Shown in pieces: positions 10,657-32,980 of a stretch of DNA of 64,000 bases. The position numbers and the translations under genes were made by a program. How positions within the stretch are numbered: the stretch's first letter is position 1; every line of letters starts with the position of its first letter. Below the pieces are notes generated by a model. The model saw nothing but the letters and a program-made list of their open reading frames with translations, was not told the DNA's origin and did not search any database. This DNA is from Nitrososphaerales archaeon (lineage in GTDB: Archaea; Thermoproteota; Nitrososphaeria; Nitrososphaerales; Gagatemarchaeaceae), in NCBI GenBank assembly GCA_032906765.1, contig JAJTZB010000001.1, positions 310,001 to 374,000 of the forward strand, read 5' to 3'.

Positions 10657-11430
10657 TCAGTCTCTACCCGGCCGTCCACGCCTCTTGTTCAAGTTCAGCA
10701 ACTTGCTCACTATCTTCTCATGTTTGTATTCGTCAAAATCAATCCATTCGAGAAGAAGTCGAACGACCGGGTGGTCCACCTGAATGTTGTCCCTGAGGCT
10801 CGCCTCACCCGCCGAGTCCTCTATGGAAAGCATTGCCCTGAGCAACTTCTCATCGGGTAGTGCGCCTCCAGATTCACTTCCCGCTTCAAGCCAGGACAGG
10901 ATTTGTGAAACGACATCACCATGCCTTATGCTGTCCGACGCTATCATCCGGAGCAACAGCTTCGTGTGATCATCCGAGGTCTGGTTCGCCAGCTCAAGAT
11001 ACTTTTCCGCGGCGGTCAGCTCCAGCTCCAGCCTTCTTCTGAGAAGTTCTGGAACGACGCCTCTTCCTGATTTCTCGGGTCGACTCCGGACAACTTTCAA
11101 CCCGCCGCTCATGACCATCAACGCCCTAGCGGTATCGAGCAGCTCGGATGTCTCTACTCCTCCGAGACCGGAACGAATCCTCTTGACAAGTTTTTCCTCG
11201 AGTGGGTCCAGCAGAGCGTCGATTGATGTGATTCCCTGAACGGCGGCCCCCCTCCTATGCTTCAGGTATTGGGTGACGGCGGGCTGAGTGACTTTCAGCG
11301 CCCTCGCGATGTCTTTGACTTTGAAGCCTTCGCTGGCAAGCCTTTCTGCGACCTTTGCCCTGATTACGGGTATGAGTCGCTCTTCGCTCTTTACATCATG
11401 AATTGTGGACATGCGTGTCTCCGTGTCCAT
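10657..11430 (-). CDS. transcription regulator: HTH fused to ferritin-like domain
   Basis: 257 residues. An N-terminal helix-turn-helix (VKDIARALKVTQPAVTQYLK, about residues 38-57) precedes a linker and then a helical bundle (about 130-245) with ferritin-like spacing: LELELTAAEKYLELA, IASDSIRHGDVVSQIL and FDEYKHEKIVSKLL supply Glu/His pairs suitable for a di-metal site. A soluble DNA-binding protein that senses Fe/Mn/Zn through a four-helix bundle is the natural reading. It is divergent from a ZIP and an NRAMP transporter across a 71-base gap packed with dyads, so it probably controls them and itself. The ATG at 11412 (MSTIHD) is an alternative start. Confidence 0.8.
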   Translation of the reverse strand: MDTETRMSTIHDVKSEERLIPVIRAKVAERLASEGFKVKDIARALKVTQPAVTQYLKHRRGAAVQGITSIDALLDPLEEKLVKRIRSGLGGVETSELLDTARALMVMSGGLKVVRSRPEKSGRGVVPELLRRRLELELTAAEKYLELANQTSDDHTKLLLRMIASDSIRHGDVVSQILSWLEAGSESGGALPDEKLLRAMLSIEDSAGEASLRDNIQVDHPVVRLLLEWIDFDEYKHEKIVSKLLNLNKRRGRPGRD

Positions 11431-13857: not shown

Positions 13858-14505
13858 CTACCGGACACCCTTGTGGTCATCCCCAATTTTCACAGCTTTC
13901 ATCAAGAAGACGATTCCCGCGAATCCTACGACTTCAGACGCCACAAGGTAAACCAGAGAATCGCTTTGGGCACGCGCAATTGGCCGTTCCGTATCGAGCG
14001 TGATCTGCATGTTGACAGGGCCGTCTGTGAACGAGACAGGTGTGACGGTCCCGTTGGAGACAACAGACATTTCGACGTTGACGGCTATGTGGGCAGGATA
14101 GACCCTTCCCTGTTGAGCATTGGATGTGTAACTCTCATTTGAGAAGGCAAAGGTCAGGTCGAGCGGCTTCGCCAAGTCAACGCGAGAGTAACCAGGAAGG
14201 GCCGGTGCGGTTTGCGAGGTCGCGAGCACGAAGTCGCTCCCGTTGAGGTGGAGCACCGCGGACTCGTCAAGCATCGACACATTCATGTTGCCACCGCGGT
14301 TGACCCGACTTATCGTCACGTGAACCGCATTGTTTCTATCCCAACTCCAGCTGTTGGCATACACGGCCGTGATCTTCAGGGTCAGGCCATTGGCGTCAAT
14401 CGTTCTTGAGAAGACTCCGGATTCAGCTGCACCCGAGGCGAAACTAGATGGAACAATTGATAGCGCAATTAGAACAAAGCCAACTAAACCGACAACTCTC
14501 TTCAA
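13858..14505 (-). CDS. exported membrane-anchored protein of unknown function
   Basis: 215 residues. It has a signal peptide (residues 1-24, ending SSFASG), a beta-rich external domain with several N-glycosylation-type sites (NVSM, NESY, NGTV), and a C-terminal membrane segment (about 182-205, SLVYLVASEVVGFAGIVFLM) with a short charged tail. I do not recognise the fold. No cysteines are present. It stands between the metal-transporter pair and the first YHS gene, with about 200 bases on its downstream side and 134 on the upstream side. Confidence 0.7.
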   Translation of the reverse strand: MKRVVGLVGFVLIALSIVPSSFASGAAESGVFSRTIDANGLTLKITAVYANSWSWDRNNAVHVTISRVNRGGNMNVSMLDESAVLHLNGSDFVLATSQTAPALPGYSRVDLAKPLDLTFAFSNESYTSNAQQGRVYPAHIAVNVEMSVVSNGTVTPVSFTDGPVNMQITLDTERPIARAQSDSLVYLVASEVVGFAGIVFLMKAVKIGDDHKGVR

Positions 14506-14639
14506 ACCACTTTCTGCGGTTGGGTCGAGTCATGCCGTAGTTCACTATGCTGGCTTTCGAACGTCAAGTCTCCGTTCACAGTGATTGGAATTTGGAAAGC
14601 GATGCGTTCTTACAGCCAGATTCGGATACCGAAGGCGAA

Positions 14640-14807
14640 ATGGCAAAAGACCCTGTCTGCGGGATGCAGGTCAGCGAGTCCACCTCTTTCGAGTCAGTGC
14701 ACATGGGGCAAACTTATTTCTTCTGTTGTCAACAGGACAAGTCCAGTTTCGACAGCAACCCAATGAAGTACGTGGGCGGACGCCAGACGAGCATGGGTCA
14801 CCACTGA
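14640..14807 (+). CDS. small YHS-domain protein
   Basis: 55 residues. MAKDPVCGMQVSESTS, then HMGQTYFFCCQQDKSSF, gives the YHS/TRASH pattern with Cys7 and the CC pair. The frame is open further upstream (to 14547), but the homologous proteins in this window start at MAKD or MQKD, so ATG at 14640 is chosen. YHS domains bind heavy-metal ions (copper, silver, mercury) and occur alone, as here, or fused to ATPases. The C-terminal tail ends MGHH. It lies just upstream of an Lrp-type regulator carrying a related domain. Confidence 0.8.
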   Translation: MAKDPVCGMQVSESTSFESVHMGQTYFFCCQQDKSSFDSNPMKYVGGRQTSMGHH

Positions 14808-14880: not shown

Positions 14881-15513
14881 TTGCCCCTCAAGCTAGACGA
14901 GACTGACACTTCAATATTGAAGGCCTTGATGAAGGACGGCAGACTCTCATTCAGACAGATAGCAGTTCAGGTTGGGGTCACAACCCCGACTGTGGAAAGC
15001 AGGGTGAAGAAGATGACCGAGTCCGGAATAATCAAGAAGATCGCCCCTATTCTCGACATTGACAAGGTGGAAAACGGGGTGGCAGCCCTGCTGATGCTGA
15101 AGGTGGAGCTCGCAGAGGTCAATTCCATCTTGGAGAAGCTGACACCCCTCGATGAGGTCCGAAGCGTCTTCCTCTCAACTGGCGTGGCCAACATGGTGGT
15201 GAGGGTGGCGACTAGCAGCAACGAAGCGTTCCAGGACTTCCTCAGTGAACGTGTGGCTTCACTCGGGGTAGACGTCGTTTCCAGCGAGGTGATCACCCGG
15301 ACCGTGAAGGACGAGCAGGGAGTGGCGCTCTACGGTGAAATGGCTGTGGCCCTGGTCTGCGACTATTGCGGCGGCGAGATAAGCGGAAAGCCTTTCACTC
15401 TCAACGTAGGAGAAGGGAAGCGGTTCTTCTGCTGCAAGACCTGCCTTTCCAGCTACAAGGAGAAGTACGAGGCGAAGTCAGGTGCCTCTTCAGGAGCAAT
15501 TTGGAACGGTTGA
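14881..15513 (+). CDS. Lrp/AsnC-family regulator with C-terminal TRASH domain
   Basis: 210 residues, TTG start. Residues 1-60 are an Lrp-type helix-turn-helix (LSFRQIAVQVGVTTPTVES), residues 65-150 an Lrp effector-like ferredoxin fold, and residues about 160-198 a TRASH domain (CDYCGGEISGKPF then RFFCCKTCLSSY). The same architecture is known in haloarchaeal copper regulator VNG1179C, and TRASH-HTH proteins control copper genes in Sulfolobales. It is the best candidate for the regulator that reads the dyad elements found at 15573, 17111, 18265 and 26013. A TTAAAG TATA-like box lies about 30 bases upstream, giving an almost leaderless transcript. Confidence 0.88.
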   Translation: MPLKLDETDTSILKALMKDGRLSFRQIAVQVGVTTPTVESRVKKMTESGIIKKIAPILDIDKVENGVAALLMLKVELAEVNSILEKLTPLDEVRSVFLSTGVANMVVRVATSSNEAFQDFLSERVASLGVDVVSSEVITRTVKDEQGVALYGEMAVALVCDYCGGEISGKPFTLNVGEGKRFFCCKTCLSSYKEKYEAKSGASSGAIWNG

Positions 15514-15572
15514 ATGCCCGTCAGCCCTGCTTGGGACGATTTGGAGTCTCGAAAGCCAACGCCAGCCAACCG

Positions 15573-15604
15573 TTCATTCTGTAAACAAGCAAGGTAATCT
15601 ATCT
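15573..15604 (+). promoter_or_regulatory. conserved dyad promoter element, site 1
   Basis: TTCATTCTGTAAACAAGCA followed by AGGTAATCTATCT. It matches sites 2-4 (17111, 18265, 26013) over about 32 bases. The CTGTAAACAAG core is a slightly degraded CCTGT-AA-ACAGG dyad. The TAATCTAT that follows sits about 35-40 bases before the TTG of the downstream YHS gene, as a TATA box would, placing the dyad upstream of the box where activators bind. Confidence 0.75.
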
Positions 15605-15637
15605 GGCGTCCGGTTTGCCCGCCGGCAGGTAACGAGG

Positions 15638-15847
15638 TTGACCGACCCCGGAAAGGAGCACTGCAAGACCTGTGGAATGGAGGTCGACCCTAAGAACGCA
15701 TGTCGCACTGAGATTGGCGGGAGGTTATTCTATTTCTGCAGGGCCCGGTGCAAGTCCGACTTCAAGAAAGCCTACTTCAGAAGAACTACTGTCGCTCCCA
15801 TCAATGCGCCGAAGGCACCCGAGAAACACGCAGGATGCCACGGGTAG
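15638..15847 (+). CDS. small TRASH/YHS-domain protein
   Basis: 69 residues from TTG at 15638. The domain reads HCKTCGMEVDPKNACRTE then GGRLFYFCRARCKSDFKKAY, with the four expected cysteines, and a tail ending KHAGCHG that adds one more Cys and two His. The frame is open to 15482, but the promoter element at 15573-15604 lies inside that extension, so the later TTG is preferred. It is probably a cytoplasmic copper-binding protein under control of that element. Confidence 0.72.
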   Translation: MTDPGKEHCKTCGMEVDPKNACRTEIGGRLFYFCRARCKSDFKKAYFRRTTVAPINAPKAPEKHAGCHG

Positions 15848-15927
15848 GCCGCAAGGACCGTGGAACGGCGTCGGTCACGCGTCGGGAGGCGAGGGGAACC
15901 TTGACTGGCACAGATTTTGAAAGGAAT

Positions 15928-16356
15928 CTAGGTCACAGTTACCTTCCCGACCATTGTCGGATGGTATTCGCAGTAATAGTTGTAAGTCCCTTGATTCGTG
16001 AAGACAACTAGAGCACTCGATTCTCCGTAGCCCAGCACGCCGGTGTGAAATGCGCCCCCTCGTTCGGCGACCTCATGGGGGACGCCATTGCCCACAGAGT
16101 CATTATTGTAGAAGACAATGGAATTGTTCACTCCAATTGTCAGCGTCACAGAGTCTGGCATGAATGAATGGTTCGCGCTTGCGGTGGCGTACGGGACGAT
16201 GGTTATTTGGATGGCTTTCACTCCACTTGGGAGACCGACGGTCTCGTGGGGAGGCGGGACCATGGGCTGATGAACGAATTGGTAGTAGCCCAGCAACGCA
16301 GCGAGAAGAATCACTGAACCTGCCACGAGAGCGAACAGTGGCTTGTTCGAGTTCAT
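15928..16356 (-). CDS. membrane-anchored cupredoxin (plastocyanin-like)
   Basis: 142 residues. An N-terminal membrane anchor (residues 6-27) is followed by one cupredoxin domain. Type 1 copper ligands are visible: His in GNGVPHEVAE and the Cys-x2-His-x2-Met cluster YYCEYHPTMVG near the C terminus. It would carry electrons on the outer face of the membrane, or bind extracytoplasmic copper. Its ATG overlaps the end of the small gene upstream (16353) by four bases, and that gene in turn overlaps the MscS gene, so the three are probably one transcript starting at the dyad element 17111-17146. Confidence 0.9.
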   Translation of the reverse strand: MNSNKPLFALVAGSVILLAALLGYYQFVHQPMVPPPHETVGLPSGVKAIQITIVPYATASANHSFMPDSVTLTIGVNNSIVFYNNDSVGNGVPHEVAERGGAFHTGVLGYGESSALVVFTNQGTYNYYCEYHPTMVGKVTVT

Positions 16357-16541
16357 GTGCTCGATGCCTCGCGAATTTCTTCAGAGACCAGGAAGTACTT
16401 CTTGCCCGCTTCGCGATTCAATTGGGGCACGGCGCTCCCATCTTTCGCCTCTTGCTGAGTTGTCTTCAGGGAGGAGGCGGCATTGCGCCTCATTTTCTTA
16501 GCTGAATTGCGGGACTGAATCGTGCTCCGGTCATCGAGCAT
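16353..16541 (-). CDS. possible small charged protein between MscS and cupredoxin genes
   Basis: 62 residues from ATG at 16541, overlapping the MscS stop and ending in an ATGA overlap with the cupredoxin start. The product is charged and without hydrophobic segments (SAKKMRRNAASS, EAGKKYFLVSEEIREA). No family is recognised; the tight stop-start overlaps at both ends are the only support. It may simply be a spacer frame. Confidence 0.35.
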   Translation of the reverse strand: MLDDRSTIQSRNSAKKMRRNAASSLKTTQQEAKDGSAVPQLNREAGKKYFLVSEEIREASST

Positions 16542-17052
16542 GGCCAAGCTCCAATCTCCTCGAAAGTCGCCCCAGCGCGGTGTAGTTGGTGAGAGGGCCG
16601 CCGGCAAGCAGACAGTTGCCTGTTACGGCGATATCGCCGTCATCCGCCTTCACCCAAGTGTTCCTGAGAGTCACTTTGACGATCTGTCCCTTCACTCCGC
16701 TGAACTGGATTGTATCGTTGAGGCTGAGGATGTTGCCATTCAGAAGGAACAGTCCTGAAACCACGTTGGACAAAGTGGTTTGAAGGGCGAGCGTTACGGC
16801 GATTCCCGCGATACCCGAGATTGCAAGTGTGGTGAACTCTTCCATGATGCCCGTTGTGTGGGCGATGCTCACCACCGCTATGGTGATCCAAATCGCGGTG
16901 ATCCCCTCTCGTACTGCGCGCAGAGTTGCGTTGGAAACACCGTTTCTTTTCCCTGCGGCCCTGATTATCCGCGTGAACGCTTCGCCCACTAGTAACGCAG
17001 CGACGGCCATGGCCGCAGATTCCAAGAGCAGACCGAGAGCCGTGTCGACCAT
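16531..17052 (-). CDS. small MscS-family mechanosensitive channel protein
   Basis: 173 residues, at the short end for MscS. Two or three membrane segments are followed by the family pore helix and beta domain: ITLALQTTLSNVVSGLFLL-like segment (VTLALQTTLSNVVSGLFLL), then LSLNDTIQF, GQIVKVTLRNTWVK and GNCLLAGGPLTNYT. It would open under membrane tension to release osmolytes. Its promoter region (17111-17146) holds one of the four near-identical dyad elements found before TRASH genes, so it seems to be part of the same regulon. The leader is longer (58 bases) than at the other sites. Confidence 0.85.
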   Translation of the reverse strand: MVDTALGLLLESAAMAVAALLVGEAFTRIIRAAGKRNGVSNATLRAVREGITAIWITIAVVSIAHTTGIMEEFTTLAISGIAGIAVTLALQTTLSNVVSGLFLLNGNILSLNDTIQFSGVKGQIVKVTLRNTWVKADDGDIAVTGNCLLAGGPLTNYTALGRLSRRLELGHAR

Positions 17053-17110
17053 CTTCCATCGCCAAGCCTACCGCGTAAGCAATCCTCCCAGCTAGGAGAA
17101 GCAGGAGAGG

Positions 17111-17146
17111 CTGCATAGATTACCGTGCCTGTTTACAGGACGAATC
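17111..17146 (-). promoter_or_regulatory. conserved dyad promoter element, site 2
   Basis: On the minus strand: ATTCGTCCTGTAAACAGGCA then CGGTAATCTATGCAG. The dyad CCTGT-AA-ACAGG is perfect. It lies 58 bases before the MscS gene start and reads in the same direction. Confidence 0.8.
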
Positions 17147-17305
17147 GACTGACGGTCCGGATTTTCAAAATGAGAGAAATCTGGCCAGGTCGCTTAACAG
17201 ATTCGAAGCCCGATCCATCGCAAAACCTCGCTGACGACGCGATCGGAGAGTTCGTGCCCGGTCCGATGTGAGTGCGGAACTCTGAAATACGCTCTCGAGG
17301 AGAGC

Positions 17306-17551
17306 TTGGCTGTGCCAAGGAAGATTCAGATTGAGAACGATTCGGAAGTGAAAATCGGTGGGCTACATCTACGCAATGCGACTGGGAATGCAATCCGCGT
17401 CACCTACGATGGGGAGAAAGCCGTGCTGGACGTTGTGGAATGCTGCATTGGGGAAACCGCGCAGACGCCACACGAATCCTTGCCTGCGTCTTCGGGGAAG
17501 ACATCCTCGCTTGGCAATAAGCAGCGCGACTCGAGCGATTTGATTCTGTAG
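17306..17551 (+). CDS. possible small hypothetical protein
   Basis: 81 residues from TTG at 17306 (GTG at 17312 also possible), with a purine-rich GAGGAG just upstream that could act as a ribosome site. The first 50 residues look protein-like (IQIENDSEVKIGGLHLRN, GNAIRVTYDGEKAVLDVVE) and include a CC pair. The rest is low-complexity and polar. A minus-strand frame overlaps it. No family recognised. Confidence 0.35.
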   Translation: MAVPRKIQIENDSEVKIGGLHLRNATGNAIRVTYDGEKAVLDVVECCIGETAQTPHESLPASSGKTSSLGNKQRDSSDLIL

Positions 17552-17645
17552 CCATTGCAGCACATCGTTTCACCGGCCACCTACCGAAGAGGAGGCTTCT
17601 GTTAAGCCATCCGGTATTCGGCCTGAAAGGCGCAGACTCTGATGG

Positions 17646-18176
17646 TCATGCCAAGTGTGCGTCGACCCTTATCACGTGGGTCATGCTGTATATCGCAGGG
17701 CATCGTTCCTCTGCTTTCTTCAGGAGTCCCTCAAGCCTATCCATATCCGCGTTTCTGCTGCTGGCTTCGATCACGATGTCTAGTCCTTCAGTTATCGGCT
17801 CGTCAGCCACGTCGAACGTCTTGGCGAAGTTGATGTAGCATTGGGCGTTCACTTTCAAGCTAGTCAATTCGACTCCGTCTATCGCGGCCACCGTGGCGAA
17901 GGTGCTAACGAAGCATGAGGTCATTCCAGCTATGCAGTAGGCCATAGGCCCAAGCCTGTTTCCATCGCCGCCGAGGTACGACGGAGAATCTATCTCTATC
18001 ACCTGGTTCCCCTTTTCGTACTGCATTTCGGTCCTGAACTGGTAGCCCTTCTCCTGGTCAAGGTTCCATTCTCCTTGCAAGGCCACCTTCTTCCTCAGGG
18101 CAGACGGTTCCCTCTTCCCTTCTTTGGCCGTCTGTGCTATCTTGTCCAGATCCACAGAATTGACGACTTTCGGCAT
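17646..18176 (-). CDS. OsmC/Ohr-family protein
   Basis: 176 residues. OsmC-fold features: LGGDGNRLGPMAYCIAGMTS with the first reactive Cys, a following FVSTFATVAAIDGVELTS helix, and AEERCPAIYSM carrying the second Cys. OsmC/Ohr enzymes reduce organic hydroperoxides through this cysteine pair. The N-terminal 45 residues form an extra helical part. It sits among metal and redox genes and may protect against copper-driven peroxides; that role is inferred from context. It is divergent from the TRASH gene at 18330. Confidence 0.88.
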   Translation of the reverse strand: MPKVVNSVDLDKIAQTAKEGKREPSALRKKVALQGEWNLDQEKGYQFRTEMQYEKGNQVIEIDSPSYLGGDGNRLGPMAYCIAGMTSCFVSTFATVAAIDGVELTSLKVNAQCYINFAKTFDVADEPITEGLDIVIEASSRNADMDRLEGLLKKAEERCPAIYSMTHVIRVDAHLA

Positions 18177-18264
18177 AACAGAACATCCCGCCGTCTCGAC
18201 TCTTAAGCCTTGGCCAACTCGCTAGGCAGCTTTCTTGCCGTTTCGAAAACCGGGGCCGGTAATT

Positions 18265-18300
18265 GGTTCATCCTGTAAACAGGCACGGTAATGTATGCAG
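18265..18300 (+). promoter_or_regulatory. conserved dyad promoter element, site 3
   Basis: GGTTCATCCTGTAAACAGGC then ACGGTAATGTATGCAG, with a perfect CCTGT-AA-ACAGG dyad. It ends 29 bases before the GTG start of the TRASH gene at 18330, the same geometry as sites 1 and 4. Confidence 0.85.
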
Positions 18301-18329
18301 CCCCCCTACGTACAGCGGTGATTGGAAGC

Positions 18330-18524
18330 GTGTTCGGAATCGGAAAGAAGTTCTGTTACACGTGTGGAATGGAAGTCAGTGGGAACCAATACCAGCGGTT
18401 CGGAAAGTACTTCTGTTCGGAGGAGCACGCGCAGCAGTACACTGAGCAGATGCAGAAGTCGAGGCAGGAGCAGCTGGCTACGGCTCAGCAAACGAAGAGC
18501 AGTGACCAGTGCGGCGGCTGCTAG
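18330..18524 (+). CDS. small TRASH-domain protein
   Basis: 64 residues from GTG at 18330 (VFGIGKKFCYTCGMEV). Cysteines: C-x2-C at KFCYTCG, a lone Cys in GKYFCSEEH, and a C-terminal QCGGC. It is a near-duplicate of the protein at 25793 on the other strand, which begins MFGLGKKYCYTCG, and this fixes the start. The helix SEEHAQQYTEQMQK is shared. Both copies are preceded by the same dyad element, so they are the same response gene present twice. It heads a tightly packed run of genes to 20669. Confidence 0.85.
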   Translation: MFGIGKKFCYTCGMEVSGNQYQRFGKYFCSEEHAQQYTEQMQKSRQEQLATAQQTKSSDQCGGC

Positions 18525-18526
18525 CC

Positions 18527-18955
18527 TTGAATTCGCGCTCGCCCGAACAAGACGGCGGGGACGCTGGGGCTGAGGGGAAGCTCATAGGTCAAACGCTGAG
18601 CCTTAGTATCCCCGCCGCAGCCCATATGAGAAACTACCTCCTTCGGGCTGGAAAGGCAGACTCCGCGATTCGAGTTTCCGTGGTCCGCACCCACTGCATG
18701 GGAGGCAAGGGTTACGGCTACAACATCGAAGAGGATTCGGTGAAAGCTGACGACACCGTTGTCGAGGGCGATGGGCTGAAGCTCCTGGTCGACCAGGAGT
18801 CACTGCGGTACCTGAGAGGAGCACACATCGACTATGAGGAATCAGTCCAGGGAGGCGGAGTAGTTGTGCGCAACCCCAACGCTGTGGGCCAATGCCACTG
18901 CGGGCGCCACGATATATTCGACCGTGAGGCACTGGCAGAGTCAGAGAAGTGCTGA
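18527..18955 (+). CDS. HesB/IscA-like iron-sulfur carrier protein
   Basis: 142 residues from TTG at 18527 (an in-frame GTG at 18509 overlaps the previous gene). The domain starts at LSLSIPAAAHMRNYL and has the A-type pattern: first Cys in VVRTHCMGGKGYGYN, then a C-x-C in VGQCHCGRHDIF, with the conserved GGGVVVRNPNA before it. A-type carriers deliver Fe-S clusters to apoproteins. Copper damages Fe-S clusters, so placement in a copper-linked operon makes sense as repair, though this is inference. The C-terminus adds a further Cys (ESEKC). Confidence 0.85.
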   Translation: MNSRSPEQDGGDAGAEGKLIGQTLSLSIPAAAHMRNYLLRAGKADSAIRVSVVRTHCMGGKGYGYNIEEDSVKADDTVVEGDGLKLLVDQESLRYLRGAHIDYEESVQGGGVVVRNPNAVGQCHCGRHDIFDREALAESEKC

Positions 18956-18961
18956 AGCAAA

Positions 18962-19375
18962 TTGAGCGGGCACGGTCCTCAAGGCGCATTCGCCCTGTCG
19001 CTGGGAGCTGGAATACTGATGCTCTTGGGGGGTGGGATCTCCTACCTGTTGTTCAGCGGAGGAGGATTCGGATACGGAACTTTGGGAGGAATGATGGCAG
19101 GATACGCCGGAATGATGGGTGGTTATGGGACTCCGCTGGGGTCGATGGGCAGTCTGGTGCTCATAGGTCTCGTAGCTGGTCTGATGGTAACCATCGGGGC
19201 GTTACTGCTGAACTCCCGCCCGGCTGAGCACGCTAAGTGGGGGGCATTAATTCTCGTATTCTCGCTGATAGGGTTCCTCGGCATGGACGCGCTCTTCATC
19301 GGCGCAATCCTGGGCGTGGTCGGCGGGGTAGTTGCGCTAAGCTGGAGACCCGCCCGCGAGGAACGCGCTACATGA
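18962..19375 (+). CDS. Met/Gly-rich four-helix membrane protein
   Basis: 137 residues from TTG at 18962. Hydrophobic segments at about 8-30, 57-80, 89-105 and 107-125 flank a Gly/Met/Tyr loop (GGMMAGYAGMMGGYG). The last part (LIGFLGMDALFIGAILGVVG, then ALSWRPA) matches the protein at 33217 closely, so the two are paralogues. The Met-rich loop could bind Cu(I) on the outer face. The gene ends in an ATGA overlap with the HMA chaperone gene, which supports a copper role. Its family is not known to me. Confidence 0.75.
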   Translation: MSGHGPQGAFALSLGAGILMLLGGGISYLLFSGGGFGYGTLGGMMAGYAGMMGGYGTPLGSMGSLVLIGLVAGLMVTIGALLLNSRPAEHAKWGALILVFSLIGFLGMDALFIGAILGVVGGVVALSWRPAREERAT

Positions 19376-19614
19376 TGGCGGAGAGGACGCAGAGGGCCAG
19401 ACTGACTGTGGTCGGGGTTCCCTGTGCCACCTGCATAATCCCGGTCAGGAAGGCGCTCCTGAAGGCCAGGGGTGTGAAGTCGGTGGGAGCCGCCTACATG
19501 CTCGACCTAATCTTGGTTGACTACGACCCCAACCTGACGAATGAAGAAGAAATCATCGGCCTGATCAAAAAGGCGGGGTACAAGGCTGTGCGAGAGCGAG
19601 GGATGTCAGGTTGA
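19372..19614 (+). CDS. HMA-domain metallochaperone (CopZ-like)
   Basis: 80 residues; ATG at 19372 overlaps the previous stop. The HMA signature is VVGVPCATCIIPVRKALLKA (Cys-Ala-Thr-Cys), followed by the expected strand DLILVDYDPNLTNEEE and KKAGYKA. It would bind Cu(I) and pass it to an ATPase such as the one at 26921. An isoleucine pair replaces the usual polar residues after CxxC. The open frame extends upstream, but the ATGA overlap and the domain boundary fix the start. The following gene overlaps its stop by four bases. Confidence 0.85.
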   Translation: MMAERTQRARLTVVGVPCATCIIPVRKALLKARGVKSVGAAYMLDLILVDYDPNLTNEEEIIGLIKKAGYKAVRERGMSG

Positions 19615-19835
19615 CGTCAAAGAGGTCGTTGCTTCGAATTGGGTTATTTGTTGGGTTCATCGGGGTAGCCCTCGCGTTGGGATACCTCGTAAACCAATCA
19701 TGGTATCTGTTCGCGTTCATTGGCCTGATGATGGTCATGCACCTGTTTGGCCACGGCGGGCACGGCGGGCACTCGCACGGCGGGTCGGAAGAGGACAGAT
19801 CGGAGGGGGATGAGGGTCACCACCATGGCAGCTGA
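19611..19835 (+). CDS. small His-rich membrane protein (DUF2933-type)
   Basis: 74 residues from TTG at 19611. Two hydrophobic segments (RIGLFVGFIGVALALGYLV and LFAFIGLMMVMHLF) are followed by a glycine/histidine tail (GHGGHGGHSHGGSE, then GHHHGS). DUF2933 proteins of this form occur in copper and silver resistance clusters; the His-rich tail is a likely metal ligand. It is embedded in the operon between the HMA chaperone and the methyltransferase, overlapping both. Confidence 0.8.
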   Translation: MTSKRSLLRIGLFVGFIGVALALGYLVNQSWYLFAFIGLMMVMHLFGHGGHGGHSHGGSEEDRSEGDEGHHHGS

Positions 19836-20487
19836 GGGATATGGCTATGGGGACTGGGGCCTGGCGATTATCAGCATTCTCCTGTTCTCCTTTGTCATCA
19901 CACGTCTTCCCTACAGGAGGACCAGACGGGGGAGCAGGGCATCCCAGGGGATGACCTTGGCATTCTTCACGGCCCTGTTCGCCGAGATGTATGGTTTCCC
20001 GCTGACCATATACATCCTCTCATGGGCAGTGGGCTACCAGAACCCGCTCACGCACGACGCGGGCCACCTCTTATTCCCAGAACTTGGAATGCTCTCCCCT
20101 CCGCACTTTCTTTCCATCGCCATGATTGCCGGTGGGGTGCTGCTCGTATTTGAAGGATGGTCAAAGATTTACAAGGCTGGTGACACGCTGGTGACAGACG
20201 GAGTGTACGCCCGGGTGAGGCATCCTCAGTATCTGGGCATATTTCTCCTGACCTCTGGGTTGATGCTGCAATGGATTACGATACCTACTGCCATCATGTT
20301 CCCCATCTTGATTTGGTTGTATTACAGGCTGGCGAAGAGGGAAGAGCGAGACATGGAAGCGGAGTTCGGAGCTGTCTACTCCGGCTACGAGGGCAGAGTT
20401 CCGATGTTCCTGCCAAGACTGCACCTGGGAATCATGAAGGATCATGATACAGATAAAATTCAGACGGCATGGCAACGCAGCAGATGA
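19825..20487 (+). CDS. isoprenylcysteine methyltransferase-like membrane protein
   Basis: 220 residues from ATG at 19825. Five to six membrane segments carry the ICMT/PEMT-family signature: VTDGVYARVRHPQYLGIFL and, later, KREERDMEAEFGAVYSGYEG, which bind S-adenosylmethionine and the membrane substrate. Such proteins are frequent in copper and other metal-resistance operons of prokaryotes, with unknown substrate. It overlaps both neighbours (DUF2933 by 11 bases, YHS by 19), which marks it as part of the same transcript. Confidence 0.85.
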   Translation: MAAEGYGYGDWGLAIISILLFSFVITRLPYRRTRRGSRASQGMTLAFFTALFAEMYGFPLTIYILSWAVGYQNPLTHDAGHLLFPELGMLSPPHFLSIAMIAGGVLLVFEGWSKIYKAGDTLVTDGVYARVRHPQYLGIFLLTSGLMLQWITIPTAIMFPILIWLYYRLAKREERDMEAEFGAVYSGYEGRVPMFLPRLHLGIMKDHDTDKIQTAWQRSR

Positions 20488-20669
20488 CCTTGCAGAAAGA
20501 CCTGGTCTGCGGGATGGATGTTAACGAGACGAAGGCGGGGTTCAAGTCAACCTATGCTGGTGTCTCCTACTATTTTTGCTCCTTGGAGTGCCAAGAAACG
20601 TTCAAGCGCCTAGCCAAAGTCTTCGCGAGGGACACAATCGAGTCCATGTCGCCTACGCGAGTCATGTAG
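20469..20669 (+). CDS. small YHS-domain protein
   Basis: 66 residues. QKDLVCGMDVNETKAGF then YAGVSYYFCSLECQETFKR gives the full YHS pattern (Cys14 and the C-x3-C pair). It closes the operon that starts at 18330: TRASH, IscA-like, Met-rich membrane, HMA, DUF2933, ICMT-like, YHS. The final 20 residues (FARDTIESMSPTRVM) are extra to the domain. Confidence 0.85.
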   Translation: MATQQMTLQKDLVCGMDVNETKAGFKSTYAGVSYYFCSLECQETFKRLAKVFARDTIESMSPTRVM

Positions 20670-20749
20670 CTTGACAGGGAAGCTTCTCCCGCCGATGGCT
20701 GTTTCGATGCTCAGGTGCGCCATCCGCCTCAATTGAGGATGGTACGCGG

Positions 20750-22894
20750 TTGAGTGTCGCTGTACCCTCTTATTACATCTGGATGGTCTTCCTGCTTCCA
20801 AATGCCGGCGCCCTAGTAACGCCGCTTCTTGCCAAACTGCCGAAGGTGAGAGATTATGTCTCTGTCTTGACCTCCCTCGTCTCTGCTCTCTTCGCCTTCC
20901 TTCTGATTCTCCCGGTATTGCAGGGTCAGAACGTCACCGTGTTCGATTCGTTCATACCAAGGAGCCTTCCTTGGATACCTTCGCTCGGAATAAACGCAGG
21001 TGTGCTCTCAGACCCCTATACAATAATCCTTTCGAATGTTGTCGCCTGGGTGAGCTTCCTCATCATGCTGTACAGCCTCGAGTACATGAAGCATGAACAG
21101 GGCCTCACCCGGTACTGGTTCTGGATGAACTTCTTTATCGGCAACATGCAGCTGATCGTCTTCTCCGACAATTTTCTGCAGCTGTACTTTGGCTGGGAGG
21201 GCGTGGGGATGTCAAGCATGATGCTCATCTCCTTCTGGCATTCGGATGAGAAGAAGTACTGGGTCGGAACTCCTGGCAGATACGCGCTGGGCGAAGAACA
21301 GGCGTATCCTCCGTCGCACGCGGGAATGAAGGCGTTCGTAATGACCAGGGTGGGTGACGTGGCCTTTCTCATAGGAATCCTTCTCGTATTCATCTACTCA
21401 GGTACTTTCAGCTTCACCCAACTCGCCAGCTCGACTGGGTGGGCAAGCAGGCTGTCGCAGTCGGGGCTGCTCGTTCCTGCAGCGCTCCTGATCTTCGGCG
21501 GGGCCGTCGGAAAGTCCGCACAGTTTCCTCTACACGAATGGCTCCCTGATGCGATGGCAGGTCCGGCGTCCGTGTCTGCCTTGATTCATGCAGCTACGAT
21601 GGTGAAGGCTGGCGTGGTTCTCGTCGCCAGGATTGGCCCCCTCTTTTACTTCGCAATGGTCGCCAACCCCACACTCATTCAACCGTTCTTTACCACGGTA
21701 GCCTGGATAGGAGCCTTCACGGCCTTTCTCGCAGCAACCCAGGCACTCGTAGGCTTCGAGATGAAGAAGATCATGGCGTACTCTACCATCTCTCAAATAG
21801 GATACATGATGATGGCGTTGGGACTGACTGGATTATCGACGAATTTTTCGCAGGGGCTGTCTGCGGGTCTCTATCAGCTTACGAGTCACGCGATCTTCAA
21901 GGCTTCAATGTTTCTCGCCGCGGGCGCTCTAATCCACGTGACGGAGTCTAAGTACATCAGCGACATGGGTGGTCTCAGGAACAGGCTAAAGATCACATTC
22001 GTGGCGCTTCTGATGGCAACGGCTTCTCTCTCGGGAATACCGCCGTTCAGCGGGTTCTGGAGCAAGGACGCGGTTCTTGCAACCGCATGGGACGCGGGTC
22101 AATTCTGGCTGTTCGGGCTCGGGGCTGTGACCGCTGGCCTGACCGCCTTCTATTCATTCAGAATGCTGGGCCTTGCCTTTTTCGGCAAGAAGAGCGATAA
22201 TTTGCGGGCTGTTGAGGAGGAACGCGGGGTCCATGAAGTCAGCCCCATCATGTGGTTGCCATATTTGGCGCTGGCTGTGGGAACGCTGGCCATCGGACTG
22301 CTCGCTCCTTTGGTGAACCTCGAGGGTGCGCTCGAATCCGCGTCAAACGCCTACCTCGCAAGCCTGTTTCCCGCGCTAACTCGCGCTGCTCCAGGTCCCA
22401 TCGGTTTCAGCTTTGCGGCTGCCCTCTGGACGGGAGCCTTCGTCATCGGGGGCATCGGCGCGGCTTCGGTTATTTACATAGCGAGAAGGATTGATTCCGC
22501 GAGACTTGTGGGAGAAAAGGGTCCCATGCGAAGTCTGTACACTTTCCTGGAGAATAGATGGTACATAAACGCGATATACTACAAGGTCTTCGTGAATGCA
22601 CCAATCGCTTTCGGAAGATGGATGCAGGCGAACGTAGAGATAGGCTTTCTGGACAGGATCAACGATGCGGGAGCGTCTCTCGCGATTTACCTCTCCAAAG
22701 CGGGCAATTGGTTCGATGTGAATGTCGTCGACGCCATGGCCGACGGAATCTCAAGTGCCGGACAGGCTATCTCGAGAGAGGCCAGGAGAATGCAGACGGG
22801 CGTGCTGGAGGATTACATTCTGGTCTTCGCGCTCGGTATCGTAATCTTGCTTGTCCTGCTCATTCTAGTTGGGGGGAGCCGTTCGCCACTGTAA
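20750..22894 (+). CDS. NuoL/MrpA-family proton-pumping subunit, standing alone
   Basis: 714 residues from TTG at 20750, with about 16 membrane segments. Typical NuoL features are NFLQLYFGWEGVGMSSMMLI, HAGMKAFVMTRVGD, FPLHEWLPDAMAGPASVSAL, IHAATMVKAG, and KKIMAYSTISQIGYMMM. The C terminus has the long lateral-helix region and the RRMQTGVLEDYIL tail seen in NuoL. It would normally be an antiporter-like subunit of complex I. No nuoM, nuoN or nuoK lies next to it, so it is a second copy or belongs to another complex. The 376-base gap after it (22895-23270) holds only unconvincing short frames. Confidence 0.9.
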   Translation: MSVAVPSYYIWMVFLLPNAGALVTPLLAKLPKVRDYVSVLTSLVSALFAFLLILPVLQGQNVTVFDSFIPRSLPWIPSLGINAGVLSDPYTIILSNVVAWVSFLIMLYSLEYMKHEQGLTRYWFWMNFFIGNMQLIVFSDNFLQLYFGWEGVGMSSMMLISFWHSDEKKYWVGTPGRYALGEEQAYPPSHAGMKAFVMTRVGDVAFLIGILLVFIYSGTFSFTQLASSTGWASRLSQSGLLVPAALLIFGGAVGKSAQFPLHEWLPDAMAGPASVSALIHAATMVKAGVVLVARIGPLFYFAMVANPTLIQPFFTTVAWIGAFTAFLAATQALVGFEMKKIMAYSTISQIGYMMMALGLTGLSTNFSQGLSAGLYQLTSHAIFKASMFLAAGALIHVTESKYISDMGGLRNRLKITFVALLMATASLSGIPPFSGFWSKDAVLATAWDAGQFWLFGLGAVTAGLTAFYSFRMLGLAFFGKKSDNLRAVEEERGVHEVSPIMWLPYLALAVGTLAIGLLAPLVNLEGALESASNAYLASLFPALTRAAPGPIGFSFAAALWTGAFVIGGIGAASVIYIARRIDSARLVGEKGPMRSLYTFLENRWYINAIYYKVFVNAPIAFGRWMQANVEIGFLDRINDAGASLAIYLSKAGNWFDVNVVDAMADGISSAGQAISREARRMQTGVLEDYILVFALGIVILLVLLILVGGSRSPL

Positions 22895-23270
22895 GGTGTC
22901 GATGGAGCCTCTATTGCTAGAAGGAAACAACCTTAGACCGTATAGCGTGTCTCTGAACTCCCTTGCTCTTGGCCTTGAATGCCAGATTCGTCTCATCCGC
23001 AACTAATCCCTCCAGTTACGATAGGCTGCCGCTCAACTTGCTCAAGTCTGTTGGCCTTTACCCAGAGTATTCCGTGTAACACTAGACACGTATTTGCGGC
23101 CAAAACAATGCTCCAACCTGCAAAGCCTGGCACCAATAGCAGCACTACCAGATTCAGCGGTCCAGCAGGGCATTACATCCAAGTCGTTCTTCTGAAGTTT
23201 CACCTTCCCGCCCTCCACTTCACCATATTGAACCGATTGTCTTGGTACAATCATGTCCGCCCCGGGTCAC

Positions 23271-23930
23271 TCACTCATACGGTCCCGCCTGGGGCGATAC
23301 GCAGTATCTGGCCAAGGCGTTGAGCCTGTGATCCTTGAACTGCTTCTCTTTTGCCATCCGAAGGGCGATATCGGTCGAGGTTATCAGACCAACAAGGGTC
23401 CCTCCCTTAACCACCGGAAGTCTTCTGATTGAATACTGAGACATGATCCTGGAAGCTTCTTCGACCGTGGCTTCGGGTTCAACAGCAATCAGTGGTGCTG
23501 TCATGATATCCGTTGCCCTGAGCTTTGAGGGAGATATGTCTTCGGCAAGCACCTTTCCAACGAGGTCCCGTTCTGTTATCATCCCGACCGCCTTGCCACC
23601 TTCCAAGACAAGCATGCAACCACGACCCTTACTAGACATCCGCTTTGCCACCTCAAGTGCCGAGCTGTCAGAGCCTATGACCTCCACCTCGGTGTTCATT
23701 ATCTGTTTGACCTTGATTGGCTCGAAGGCAATAGCATACTTTTCTGGGTTCTTTTCAAATTCTGTCTGACATGCGAAAGAGCAGAAGTGGAACTTCTTGG
23801 CTTTGTAGTCAGTAACGAATCTTTCATCCGCAGCGTCGAGCGCCATTCCGCAAACCGGATCTCTCGGTTCGCTAGCAGTACTTTGACCACGGGTCTCTTC
23901 ACGCCCTACACCTGATTCGGTATTAGACAT
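23271..23930 (-). CDS. YHS domain fused to a pair of CBS domains
   Basis: 219 residues from ATG at 23930 (MSNTESGVG). Residues about 22-66 form a YHS domain (DPVCGMALDAADERF then KFHFCSFACQTEF). Residues about 75-195 form two CBS motifs (VKQIMNTEVEVIG, MLVLEGGKAVGMITERDLVG, TDIMTAPLIAVEPEAT, SIRRLPVVKGGTLVGLITST). CBS pairs bind adenosine nucleotides, so the protein may couple metal load to energy state. The stop of the upstream membrane gene is five bases before this start, so the two are cotranscribed. I do not know a characterised protein of this architecture. Confidence 0.85.
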   Translation of the reverse strand: MSNTESGVGREETRGQSTASEPRDPVCGMALDAADERFVTDYKAKKFHFCSFACQTEFEKNPEKYAIAFEPIKVKQIMNTEVEVIGSDSSALEVAKRMSSKGRGCMLVLEGGKAVGMITERDLVGKVLAEDISPSKLRATDIMTAPLIAVEPEATVEEASRIMSQYSIRRLPVVKGGTLVGLITSTDIALRMAKEKQFKDHRLNALARYCVSPQAGPYE

Positions 23931-23935
23931 GTCGG

Positions 23936-24847
23936 TCAACCGGCTGTATTCCACGTGAATATTCTTTCAGCCCCGTACAAGTTCCCCAACACGAGCGTAA
24001 TGGAAGCGGGGCGGTCGGTTAATGGTGGGAACACGAGAATACCTTCCCTGTGGTGGCCCCCGGGCGGCGAACCGCTCCACTGGAGCGGAATGTACTTCGT
24101 TCCGTTGCCATCCTGCAGGTAAGCTGTCCTGGTCAGATCAAAGCTCAGGTCCCCGACATGAGTGTCCATCTTGATGTCGAAGCTTGTGTTCTTACCGATC
24201 GCCAAAGGTGCGGGAGTCACAGTTACACTCAGACCATTCGCGTCGCTACCCTTTTCCTGCAGCGAAACGACGTTGCTTTGAACGCTGCCGGGCGCTGTCG
24301 CACCAATCGCGGTGGCCCAACCCAATCCGAGAACGGCCACCATGGTAGCAGCGATTGCGAGATTTCTGACCTTTGCCATGTCGACGGTCATGATTCTTGC
24401 CAAGAGACCCTGGGGATTGTAAAGCCGGTGCTTCTGGATTATGGCTAGCATGACTGTTATCCCGACCATGTTGGACAGCAATCCGATGAATATGAAGAAA
24501 GTCTGATAGGCGGTCAGGAAGATCGCTGCGGCCGTAATTCCTGCGAAGGGAACCAGATCCGTGACGTGATGTGCACAGCATGCGATCATCGATGCCGTTG
24601 AGACCCCTCCACCCGCGGTCACCGAGGCTGAGCTCTGAATCGCCTTTGCGTAGTGCCTCGTGTAGGAGAAGAGTGAAACTTGAATACCAAAGCCGACGAC
24701 CAGTGGGACCATCAGGTGCGAAAGAGAGATGAATTCGGCGACGGCGTGGCCGAAGCCCTGCGCTAGAGTTACTATCGCGAAGTAGACACTAAGGAGTCCC
24801 AGGCCTCCTATCAGGCCATGGATTGATATCCTGACACCGTCCTTCAA
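23936..24847 (-). CDS. membrane protein with CCxHH segment and external beta domain
   Basis: 303 residues. The N-terminal half has five membrane segments. One contains STASMIACCAHHVTDLVPF, a Cys-Cys-Ala-His-His cluster suited to metal binding. A sixth segment (about 163-182) leads to an external domain of about 115 residues with beta-strand pattern (LSVTVTPAPLAIGKNTSFDI, GNGTKYIPLQWSG). I do not recognise the family with confidence. Location before the YHS-CBS gene and after HtpX suggests a copper-transport or copper-sensing role in the membrane. Confidence 0.75.
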   Translation of the reverse strand: MKDGVRISIHGLIGGLGLLSVYFAIVTLAQGFGHAVAEFISLSHLMVPLVVGFGIQVSLFSYTRHYAKAIQSSASVTAGGGVSTASMIACCAHHVTDLVPFAGITAAAIFLTAYQTFFIFIGLLSNMVGITVMLAIIQKHRLYNPQGLLARIMTVDMAKVRNLAIAATMVAVLGLGWATAIGATAPGSVQSNVVSLQEKGSDANGLSVTVTPAPLAIGKNTSFDIKMDTHVGDLSFDLTRTAYLQDGNGTKYIPLQWSGSPPGGHHREGILVFPPLTDRPASITLVLGNLYGAERIFTWNTAG

Positions 24848-24865
24848 CCAAGGCTCACTTCTCTG

Positions 24866-25774
24866 TTAGGGGACATAGAGGTTCATTTCGCGTGCCACCC
24901 TCTTCAGCCTCCACACCCGGTGCGGCATTGACGGATGAGTCGAGAAGAGTTCTACCAGTGTGCTGCCTCTGAACGGGTTCACAATCCAGAGCGAGGCAGT
25001 CGCGGGGGACGGAGTCTGACCCGACCTGCCTGAAATAGGCCTCGTCTGGGCCTTCGCTGTTATCTTCTCCAGGGCGTTGATCAGCCCTCCAGGGTTCCTT
25101 GTTAGCTTAGCGCCGTATTCGTCGGCGTTGTACTCGTCGTTCCTGCTTATCCCCAGTTGTATGAATGTGGCACCCAGCGGTACGAGTATCGCGGCTACCA
25201 GCAAGAGGATTGGCGAGCCTCCGTTCCTGTTTCTACTGTTTCCACCGCCGGACCAAAGAGACCACAGAGCTATGTTGCCGACAAAGGAGATGGCCCCTGC
25301 CATCGTTGCGGCCACACTGGACATCAGGACGTCCCGGTGCACAACATGCCCGATTTCATGGCCCACCACCGCCTCCAGCTCGTCCGGCGTGAGCGTCTGC
25401 AGGATGGTGGAAGTGGCAACCACGACGGCTTTCTTCGGCCCTCTCCCAGTCGCGAATGCGTTGGGCTGCGGGGAATCGACTATCCCAACCTTGGGCATCG
25501 GGATTCCCGCCTTCTGAGCAACATTCCGCACGACCCTGAAGAGTGCTGGGTTGTCGCTCTCCTGAATTACCTTGGCCCTACTCATCCTGATGACTATGGA
25601 GTCGCTGTAATAGTATGAAACGAAGTTGAAGACCGCGGCCAGTCCTAGCGCTAGGAGCATGACCGGAATGGGGTCGCCGAAAAAGTACAGTCCCACAACG
25701 TATCCTACGGCCATGAGCAGGACCGTCAGTACCGCGAAAAGCAGTGTTATCTTGAGGTAGATTGACGCGCCCAA
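24866..25774 (-). CDS. htpX: HtpX-family membrane zinc metalloprotease (M48)
   Basis: 302 residues. Two N-terminal membrane segments are followed by the M48 core: ALEAVVGHEIGHVVHRDVL-type motif (VVGHEIGHVVHRD, zinc-binding HExxH variant HEIGH) and the third ligand in SRNDEYNADEYGAKLTRNPG. It degrades misfolded membrane proteins, a common stress response to metals. The stop of the TRASH gene at 25793 lies 18 bases upstream of its start, so the pair is probably one transcript driven by the dyad element 26013-26050. Confidence 0.92.
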   Translation of the reverse strand: MGASIYLKITLLFAVLTVLLMAVGYVVGLYFFGDPIPVMLLALGLAAVFNFVSYYYSDSIVIRMSRAKVIQESDNPALFRVVRNVAQKAGIPMPKVGIVDSPQPNAFATGRGPKKAVVVATSTILQTLTPDELEAVVGHEIGHVVHRDVLMSSVAATMAGAISFVGNIALWSLWSGGGNSRNRNGGSPILLLVAAILVPLGATFIQLGISRNDEYNADEYGAKLTRNPGGLINALEKITAKAQTRPISGRSGQTPSPATASLWIVNPFRGSTLVELFSTHPSMPHRVWRLKRVAREMNLYVP

Positions 25775-25792
25775 CTCGCTTCGACTACCCTA

Positions 25793-25978
25793 TCAGCAAC
25801 CGCCACCGCGTCTTGACTGTGGCGCCTCTGCCAGCTGCTCCTGTCTTGCTTTCTGCATCTGCTCTGTGTATTGTTGTGCGTGCTCCTCCGAACAGAAGTA
25901 CTTGCCGAACCTCTGGTACTGGGTCCCGCCAACTTCCTTTCCGCACGTGTAACAGTACTTCTTTCCAAGCCCGAACAT
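25793..25978 (-). CDS. small TRASH-domain protein, duplicate of that at 18330
   Basis: 61 residues from ATG at 25978 (MFGLGKKYCYTCGKEV). The core GGTQYQRFGKYFCSEEHAQQ is the same as in the protein at 18330 apart from a few changes, and the tail ends RRGGGC. The start is fixed by this comparison, although the frame is open further upstream through the promoter element. It precedes htpX, linking TRASH-mediated metal response to membrane proteolysis. Confidence 0.87.
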   Translation of the reverse strand: MFGLGKKYCYTCGKEVGGTQYQRFGKYFCSEEHAQQYTEQMQKARQEQLAEAPQSRRGGGC

Positions 25979-26012
25979 TCTTTCTCTCCCCCCCCAGTAG
26001 GCATAGGAAAAG

Positions 26013-26050
26013 CTCGATAGATTACCCTGCCTATTTACAGGATGAATCTC
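26013..26050 (-). promoter_or_regulatory. conserved dyad promoter element, site 4
   Basis: On the minus strand: GAGATTCATCCTGTAAATAG then GCAGGGTAATCTATCGAG. The dyad has one mismatch (CCTGT-AA-ATAGG). It ends 34 bases before the TRASH gene start at 25978, matching the spacing at sites 1 and 3. Confidence 0.82.
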
Positions 26051-26282
26051 AGGCTGGTGCCGACTTTCGGGACGGCAAGGAAGCACCACCTGGAATCGAC
26101 AGTGTCGGTGTTGGTTCTGGCTGCTATCTCAATACAAATCGGAATCTACCCTGATTCTGTGTTCGAGTCTCTTTACACACACTTGCACGCTCTGCCAATC
26201 CCTGGAGGCCAATAGGGCTCGACCTCTTTCATGCCGCACGTTCATATAGAGGCTATTAGGTCACGATAGTTCGGAGAGTTGC

Positions 26283-26804: not shown

Positions 26805-26852
26805 GCCCACCAGTCCGGCTGCACTTTACACCCGTCAAGTCGGTGACAACCG

Positions 26853-26884: not shown

Positions 26885-26920
26885 AGACGCGTAAGAAACC
26901 TCGGACCGTAGGGTGGGAAC

Positions 26921-29038
26921 ACGGCGAAGGACATAATCTGTGGAATGTACGTCGACGAGAACAAGGCCCCGTATAAGGCCGAGCGCAGGGGCACGACGTA
27001 CTACTTCTGCAGTGAGAACTGCTACAAACAGTTCATCGCTCCCGAGAGGGAGTTCAGAAGCCTTAAGATAATCACCGCCTTCAGCCTGATCCTCGGCAGC
27101 ATCACGGCCGTGTTCGAGTACGGGGCGCCGGTGATACTGGGCGTCTCCCACAACTTCGTCTGGCTGGGTCTGCCCAACTACGTCTGGCTCTTCCTGTTTG
27201 CAACACCCGTTCAATTCATTGGCGGGTGGAGGTTCTACAAAGGAACTCTGGACGCCATAAGGGCAAGGCAGGCCAACATGGACAGTCTCATAGCGACAGG
27301 GACGAGCGCTGCCTGGGTATACAGCACTCTGTTCACGTTCTTCCCGTGGATCTTCCCCAAGACGGTCACTCTCGGCGGACCTGCGGTCTACTTCACCGAA
27401 GCCGGCCTGATCATTGGCTTCATCATGCTCGGCAAGACCATGGAGCACATTGTGAAAGGTAAGGCTTCCGACGCCATCAGAAAACTCCTGGACCTTCAGC
27501 CGAAGCTTGCCAAGGTGATCAAGAACGGAGTAGAAACGGAAGTTCCGGTCGAGCAGGTGCGGGTCGACGACGTAGTTGTGGTGAGGCCCGGAGAGAAGAT
27601 ACCTGTCGATGGCATTGTCGTAGAAGGTCATTCCTCTGTTGACCAATCCGTCGTCACCGGTGAGAGCATTCCGGCGGAAAAGGGGGTCGGGGACGAAGTC
27701 ATAGGCGCCACCATCAACAAGGCGGGCTTCCTCAAAGTCAGGGCGACCAAGGTGGGTTCCGACTCGGCCCTCTCACAGATAGTGAAGATGGTCGAGGAGG
27801 CGATCGTCTCACAGGCTCCGATACAGAGGATGGCCGACAGGATATCTTCGTTCTTCGTGCCGGTGGTGGTCACCATCGCTGTCGGTTCCTTCCTGTTCTG
27901 GTACCTAGGCTGGGGGCTGCCGTTCGCTGTTGCGTTCATTGTTCTCGTGTCTGTGCTGATAGTCGCCTGCCCGTGCGCTCTGGGCATCGCAACCCCGGCG
28001 GCGATTATGATAGGCGCCTCGAAGGGCGCACAGAATGGGATTCTGATTAAGAATGGAGAATATCTGGAGAAGGCCCACAAGCTGACGACAGTAGTCTTCG
28101 ACAAGACAGGGACCCTTACCAAGGGAGAGCCCTCACTGACCGACGTGGTCGGCTTCAACAGCGGAGAGGAAGAGGTTCTCCGGATGGCAGCCGCTGCGGA
28201 GGTGGGGTCGGAGCATCCCCTGGGAGAAGCAATAGTGCGAGGGGCAAGAGAAAGAGGGTTGTCGATCGATAACCCCGAGGGCTTTGAAGCCATCGCCGGG
28301 CAGGGGGTCAAGGCGACCGTCAGGGGAGCGATTGTCCTGTTGGGCAACAGGAAACTCATGGAAGTCAATGGGATACCGACCGAGGTCGCCGAGGAGAGGA
28401 TGAAGAGCCTGGAGGGGGACGGCAAGACGGCCATGCTCGTTGCAGTGGACGGCAGACTGAAGGGCATTGTAGCAGTCGCCGACACGATAAAGGAGAACGC
28501 TCCAGCGGCCGTCAAGCAATTGCAGTCGATGGGAATCGATGTCGTGATGCTCACGGGAGACAACAGAAGGACCGCAGACGCCATCGCGAGGAAGCTCGGG
28601 ATAACTAACGTCTTGGCAGAGGTGCTCCCGGGGGATAAGGCGAAGGTGGTCGGCGAGCTCAAGGGCGAGGGCAAGGTGGTCGCCATGGTGGGGGACGGCG
28701 TCAACGATGCCCCGGCGCTCGCGGCTTCCGACGTGGGAATCGCGATAGGAAGCGGGACCGACATAGCGAAGGAGACGGGTGGCGTCGTACTGATGAGGAG
28801 CGACGTATCCGATGTTGCCAAGGCGATCATACTCAGCAAGAGAGTTGTGCGCAAGATCAAGGAGAACCTCTTCTGGGCCTTCGCGTACAACATAGTGCTG
28901 ATTCCAGTTGCAGCGGGTGTGCTCTACCTTCCGTTCGGGTTGCTGTTGAACCCTATCTTCGCCGCGATAGCGATGGCATCCAGCTCAATCACGGTCACCC
29001 TGAACTCCATGCTGCTCGAGAGGTTCAAACTAAGGTGA
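26921..29038 (+). CDS. copA: copper-type P1B ATPase with N-terminal YHS domain
   Basis: About 705 residues. The YHS domain reads [19 protein letters not shown] then [14 protein letters not shown]. The pump motifs are TGES, CPC ([17 protein letters not shown]), [20 protein letters not shown] and [14 protein letters not shown], i.e. Cu(I)/Ag(I) exporter type. The first NTG in frame is the ATG at 26945, which would delete the first YHS cysteine. A TAG at 26909 bounds the frame, and the only plausible upstream start is ACG at 26921, giving MAKDIICGM, matching MAKDPVCGM at 14640. The gene overlaps the membrane-protease gene by four bases. It exports copper from the cytoplasm. Confidence 0.93.
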
Positions 29039-32940: not shown

Positions 32941-32980
32941 ATGAAATAGGCAGCGCCTCGTGGATGCAGACGGTGGTAAG

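Follow-up and report, generated by a model that had tools for sequence, protein, structure and literature searches.

Four near-identical promoter elements in an uncultured Nitrososphaerales archaeon probably each combine an operator with a core promoter and belong to a metal-responsive regulon of the CopR (Lrp-TRASH) type; their reader would be the protein encoded at 14881. They lie in the window, by which we mean the whole 64,000-nucleotide stretch analysed. The sequences themselves show that the elements are conserved, also at orthologous genes, and placed exclusively, and they give the spacing and the domain content; binding, activation and the direction of regulation, the identity of the metal, co-transcription and the operon extents are inferred. 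The four elements were first noticed in a preliminary description of the window; on re-reading the sequence, they are real, stand at the places and promoter positions given there, and form the following 30-bp units.

15573–15602, forward strand: W1 element, TTCATTCTGTAAACAAGCAAGGTAATCTAT, with its TATA-like part at 15595–15602
17115–17144, reverse strand: W2 element, upstream of the MscS–cupredoxin genes
18267–18296, forward strand: W3 element, upstream of the TRASH–IscA–DUF6114–HMA–(small)–ICMT–YHS run
26017–26046, reverse strand: W4 element, upstream of the TRASH–HtpX–(one protein)–YHS/CBS run

The pairwise identity of W1–W4 is 87–93% over 30 bp, and their flanks are unrelated, with 32–53% identity in the 60 bp upstream and 22–38% downstream. 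The string previously quoted as shared is valid as a consensus but not as an exact repeat, as TTCATCCTGTAAACAGGCA is exact solely at 18267 and CGGTAATCTATGCAG solely at 17144. Similarly, the CCTGTAAACAGG dyad is perfect in two of the four elements but is not the conserved feature; relatives keep the right half, TGTAAA, and the TATA spacing, and the left half drifts. A genome-wide search (1.77 Mb in 13 contigs; 30-mer with up to three mismatches) returned W1–W4 only, and the reversed control pattern in the same search returned 0 matches. A looser element pattern again found only W1–W4 within this genome. The preliminary description held that placement before metal genes is selective and would fail if the element were scattered or found inside genes; all four genome-wide matches are upstream of metal-type genes, and there are no further copies. 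A matrix built from W1–W4 gives 49–50 bits to its own sites, 11.6 to the next position in the window and 19.2 to the best of 20 shuffled windows; since it scores the sites on which it was trained, only the gap to the next score is informative.

The proposed reader and the genes behind the elements are as follows.

14881–15513, forward strand: CopR-type regulator, the proposed reader (Pfam HTH_AsnC 1.6e-14, AsnC_trans_reg 3.3e-08, Arc_trans_TRASH 1.9e-12)
15638–15847, forward strand: small TRASH/YHS-like protein of 69 aa (weak Pfam TRASH_HVO_1752_C 1.2e-4, YHS 0.0011)
15928–16356, reverse strand: cupredoxin (Pfam Cupredoxin_1 3.3e-08)
16531–17052, reverse strand: MscS-type channel, beta domain (Pfam MS_channel_2nd 4.1e-11)
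18330–18524, forward strand: small TRASH-like protein of 64 aa (CYTCG...FCSEEH), no Pfam match; its G029 orthologue is 82% identical
18509–18955, forward strand: IscA-like Fe-S biosynthesis protein (Pfam Fe-S_biosyn 1.9e-10)
19372–19614, forward strand: HMA-domain metallochaperone-like protein (Pfam HMA 4e-09)
23271–23954, reverse strand: YHS and CBS domain protein (Pfam CBS 1.3e-27, YHS 7.6e-12)
24866–25774, reverse strand: HtpX-like M48 membrane protease (Pfam Peptidase_M48 3.2e-38)
25793–25978, reverse strand: small TRASH-like protein, a paralogue of that at 18330 (77%)

By its Pfam domains, the 14881 protein has an N-terminal Lrp/AsnC winged HTH, a ligand domain and a C-terminal TRASH domain, which is the architecture of CopR. 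The genomic association of CopR with a P1B ATPase and a small TRASH/HMA chaperone is also present, with the ATPase (26945) and the HMA protein (19372) in the same region, and relatives of the regulator adjoin YHS, P-ATPase and HMA genes. Among titled matches to the regulator, the nearest stands at the end of a contig of 'archaeon isolate YP1.bin45' (96% over 28 residues), and the next are at about 50% in Nitrososphaeria/Thaumarchaeota MAGs. No element precedes copR, whose own promoter has a canonical TTAAAG box.

The geometry of the elements fits that of promoters. The starts of the three small TRASH genes (TTG 15638, GTG 18330, ATG 25978) are 29–34 bases from the element ends as first delimited, in line with the distances given earlier, and TAATCTAT is 34–46 bp before these starts, so the leaders should be short. 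The MscS start (17052) lies farther off, about 58 bases from W2 and about 62 bp after TAATCTAT. The distance from TATA to start codon, measured on the sequence, is 31–38 bp at six sites, and the canonical TATA of this genome peaks at −40 to −26 relative to start codons placed by a dicodon gene caller. This geometry bears out the earlier proposal that the TATA-like part sits where a TATA box is expected. All of the window elements read GTAAA[C/T]-N10-ATCTAT (ATGTAT in one), that is, a C-containing, non-canonical TATA at fixed spacing. The right half TGTAAA is present in four of four, and the left half retains just CA (three) or CG (one), compared with the full semi-palindrome TTNNCA-N2/3-TGNNAA seen in JARVJX and in the cop promoters of relatives. 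The predicted activator-like position, just upstream of the TATA-like part, is likewise supported.

A second conserved box, YGAAAR, was missed by the first reading. Its GAAA core is exactly 22 bp upstream of each of the four elements.

15551–15554, forward strand: GAAA box of W1, the core of YGAAAR, 22 bp before the element
17163–17166, reverse strand: GAAA box of W2
18245–18248, forward strand: GAAA box of W3, preceded by CTTGCC
26065–26068, reverse strand: GAAA box of W4, preceded by CTTGCC

The chance of such a GAAA run in the four window sites is about 2e-5 (about 2 per 100,000 trials), a post hoc value. GAAA also stands at −22 in G024:C129 and in the first G029 copy; the second G029 copy has it at −23. 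The distance from GAAA to TGTAAA is 31 bp, or three helical turns, which would fit wrapping Lrp-type assemblies.

Searching relatives for the sites, a check proposed in the preliminary description, placed the element at orthologous genes in G029 and G024, which belong to other genera, and in JARVJX (G229), which belongs to another family of the order; the comparison genomes are metagenome-assembled, as far as titles show. Within the family, the element is present in three of 46 genomes (our own, G000, together with G029 and G024). In relatives it nearly always precedes small TRASH/YHS or IscA-like genes. The copy at G029:C56:5542 is the counterpart of W3, preceding the 82%-identical mini-TRASH gene and then the same IscA-like and DUF6114 genes, and the second, weaker G029 copy (2469) directly precedes an IscA-like gene. 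In G024:C129 an 82%-identical Lrp-TRASH gene is directly followed by the element, the same position that W1 takes in the window; no clear metal gene comes after this element. The short reading frame that follows (L049:856–1020) is interrupted by an in-frame TAG; judged from this sequence, the target gene may have decayed. A weaker element in G024:C27 precedes a YHS gene; a second Lrp-TRASH gene (80%) and a P-type ATPase gene are nearby. The JARVJX element lies between an Lrp-TRASH gene (50%) and a YHS gene, just downstream of CopR. In a scan of 400 genomes across the class, the other matches checked outside the family, apart from G229, lay inside or ran across genes or were not followed at promoter distance by any plausible gene. 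Reversed-pattern controls gave matches just as often, so these other matches were rejected.

To relate the elements to canonical CopR operators, we compared them with the promoters of relatives. Family members and outgroups with a 33–51%-identical Lrp-TRASH protein usually have YHS, copR, P-type ATPase and HMA genes together. In these relatives, dyads of CTTTAC-N4-GTAAAG (0–2 mismatches) cluster at the copR, YHS and ATPase starts; the background of our genome has 2 in 240 kb. The relatives' YHS promoters have GTAAAG, exactly 10 bp, and then an AWATAG-like TATA, and W1–W4 and the JARVJX site (GTAAA[CTG]-N10-AT[CG]TAT) keep the same register as this GTAAAG-N10-AWATAG. A matrix trained on seven relatives' promoters, with all of the elements left out, has its top score in the respective locus at the JARVJX element (26.8 bits), the G024:C27 element (25.1) and the G029 copy at 2469 (16.3). 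It scores W1–W4 weakly, at 0.5–6.1 bits (ranks 22, 108, 178 and 179 of 628,000). The bridging sites near copR and YHS genes and the 10-bp register support the earlier suggestion that the Lrp-TRASH protein at 14881 is the likely reader. Two further sites of the canonical kind, both missed at first, are found in the window.

26824–26839, forward strand: CopR-like site upstream of the P-type ATPase gene (26945–29038), CTTTACACCCGTCAAG, which departs from the relatives' dyad at one base
32918–32951, forward strand: canonical-type CopR site and TATA, GTTTGTTTTTGTAAAGACAAACCATGAAATAGGC, before a YHS gene (32981–33130)

The 32918 site has the best score of the relatives' matrix in 314 kb of this genome, and an orthologous promoter is present in G024:C27. 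Genome-wide, the pattern of canonical half-site plus TATA is exact only at 32918, and the remainder is at control level. At 26920–26945, the YHS domain of the P-type ATPase seems to start before the gene's first in-frame ATG (AKDIICGMY...), and back to the upstream stop there is no standard start codon.

Some other positions resemble the CopR matrix. Back-to-back promoter-like sites at 14535–14568 (reverse strand) and 14584–14617 (forward strand) lie between a secreted-type protein gene (13858–14505) and a YHS gene (14547–14807), and a similar site precedes the orthologous gene in G024:C129 (L049 2068–2101). The second-best score of the relatives' matrix, 18.7 bits, is at 31826–31859 (forward strand), 18 bp before a small ORF (31878) with membrane-like sequence. 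The window matches at 31826, 26218, 14584 and 14568 are not claimed as operators.

We take W1–W4 to be a CopR operator in derived form; alternatively, they are read by some other factor. Such a factor would be a regulator other than Lrp-TRASH, also responsive to metal or redox stress, and the likeness to CopR operators would be partly coincidence. The low scores in the relatives' CopR matrix and the restriction of YGAAAR to this element class would fit this alternative, as would G029. CopR co-occurs with the element in G000, G024 and G229, and in G029 (97% complete, two elements) we found no Lrp-TRASH protein at E<1e-20 and no PF08394 at E<0.01; the best Lrp matches there are about 25% identical. 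However, the bridging sites fit both motif models and adjoin copR or YHS genes, and the 10-bp register to TATA is common to the elements and the CopR sites. The other cluster regulator tested as reader, an HTH/weakly rubrerythrin-like protein (10657–11430, reverse strand), is found in G229 and is absent from G024 and G029. Taken together, we regard a different regulator as unlikely. A related and rather doubtful possibility is a two-box operator class (YGAAAR ... TGTAAAC-N10-ATCTAT) in which CopR acts with, or is replaced by, a second factor; a sequestration and repair sub-regulon (TRASH, IscA, HtpX, MscS–cupredoxin) would then stand apart from the canonical CopR export promoters of the same genome.

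In all sites, the sequence at the TATA position is TATA-like but unusual, which could also suggest core promoters for a specialized TFB/TBP pair rather than operator sites. This reading is very improbable: conservation extends well beyond the BRE, up to the boxes TGTAAA and GAAA, the genome has just four sites, and relatives' YHS promoters carry an ordinary TATA behind the same half-site. Lastly, the spread of one promoter by recent duplication or a mobile repeat, with similarity that does not come from selection, is scarcely credible and was rejected, since the flanks are unrelated around a near-identical 30 bp, counterparts occupy orthologous places in other genera and no other genomic copies exist, even if two of the genes behind the elements are paralogous (77% identity).

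Under the CopR reading, the 14881 protein would bind just before the BRE, at the semi-palindrome around TGTAAA, and would probably contact the YGAAAR box as well, three helical turns farther upstream. Its TRASH domain would bind a metal, probably Cu or Ag, and the metal-bound regulator would help TBP/TFB to use an otherwise poor TATA (ATCTAT). The genes turned on would be those of the small TRASH/YHS metal-binding proteins, the HMA chaperone, the IscA-like protein (Fe-S repair), HtpX and MscS–cupredoxin.

Among the closest known systems is CopR of P. furiosus (PF0739), an octameric Lrp-TRASH regulator whose motif, TTNNCAWWWTGNNAA, is directly upstream of the BRE (PMC7830388). It activates promoters with C-enriched TATA boxes, and the copper response includes Fe-S assembly genes, with the 14 most induced genes within 28 kb (PMC7830388). 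The window system shares the Lrp HTH and TRASH regulator, the right half of the semi-palindrome upstream of the BRE and the C-containing TATA; the P. furiosus targets likewise include a metal exporter, a chaperone and Fe-S assembly genes, most induced within one region of about 28 kb. Unlike in P. furiosus, the left half-site has diverged (TTCAT), there is an extra YGAAAR box, no His-rich tail is seen in the 14881 regulator, the predicted targets are small TRASH/YHS, HtpX and MscS–cupredoxin genes, and copR and the ATPase gene are 12 kb apart. Archaeal cop clusters of the form copR–copT/copM–copA with a TRASH chaperone are known in Saccharolobus solfataricus and others (PMC7830388). Here too, genes for CopR, a small TRASH metallochaperone-like protein and a P-type ATPase share one neighbourhood; in contrast, they spread over about 20 kb, where there are several small TRASH/YHS paralogues, three with an element each. 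Since the P. furiosus regulon and the archaeal cop cluster are already known, the window system is most likely a lineage-specific variant of a known copper-stress control system. The metal-stress regulon claimed earlier is not a new kind, Lrp-TRASH CopR regulons being on record in P. furiosus (PMC7830388), and its 'copper' is a reading of the gene families only. New here are the derived operator form, the YGAAAR box, the additional canonical sites of the window and the unusual predicted regulon members (MscS–cupredoxin, IscA-like, HtpX).

In the related archaeon Nitrososphaera viennensis, promoter motifs were reported under Cu limitation, TTCSGSMTTTGWACYANT and RATTTAAABATAGATTTAAATAATAAS (PMC7785015). 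Like the window elements, these are shared promoter motifs, and they stand at Cu-related genes; they differ from W1–W4 in sequence and targets. Regulation of the cop genes in N. viennensis was called an open question (PMC7785015), and the present elements give a concrete candidate CopR operator for archaea of the class Nitrososphaeria. On the evidence of promoters, they link MscS, cupredoxin, IscA-like, HtpX and very small TRASH proteins, an unusual set, with metal stress. In addition, they show that an archaeal activator site can diverge yet keep one half-site and the exact distance to TATA.
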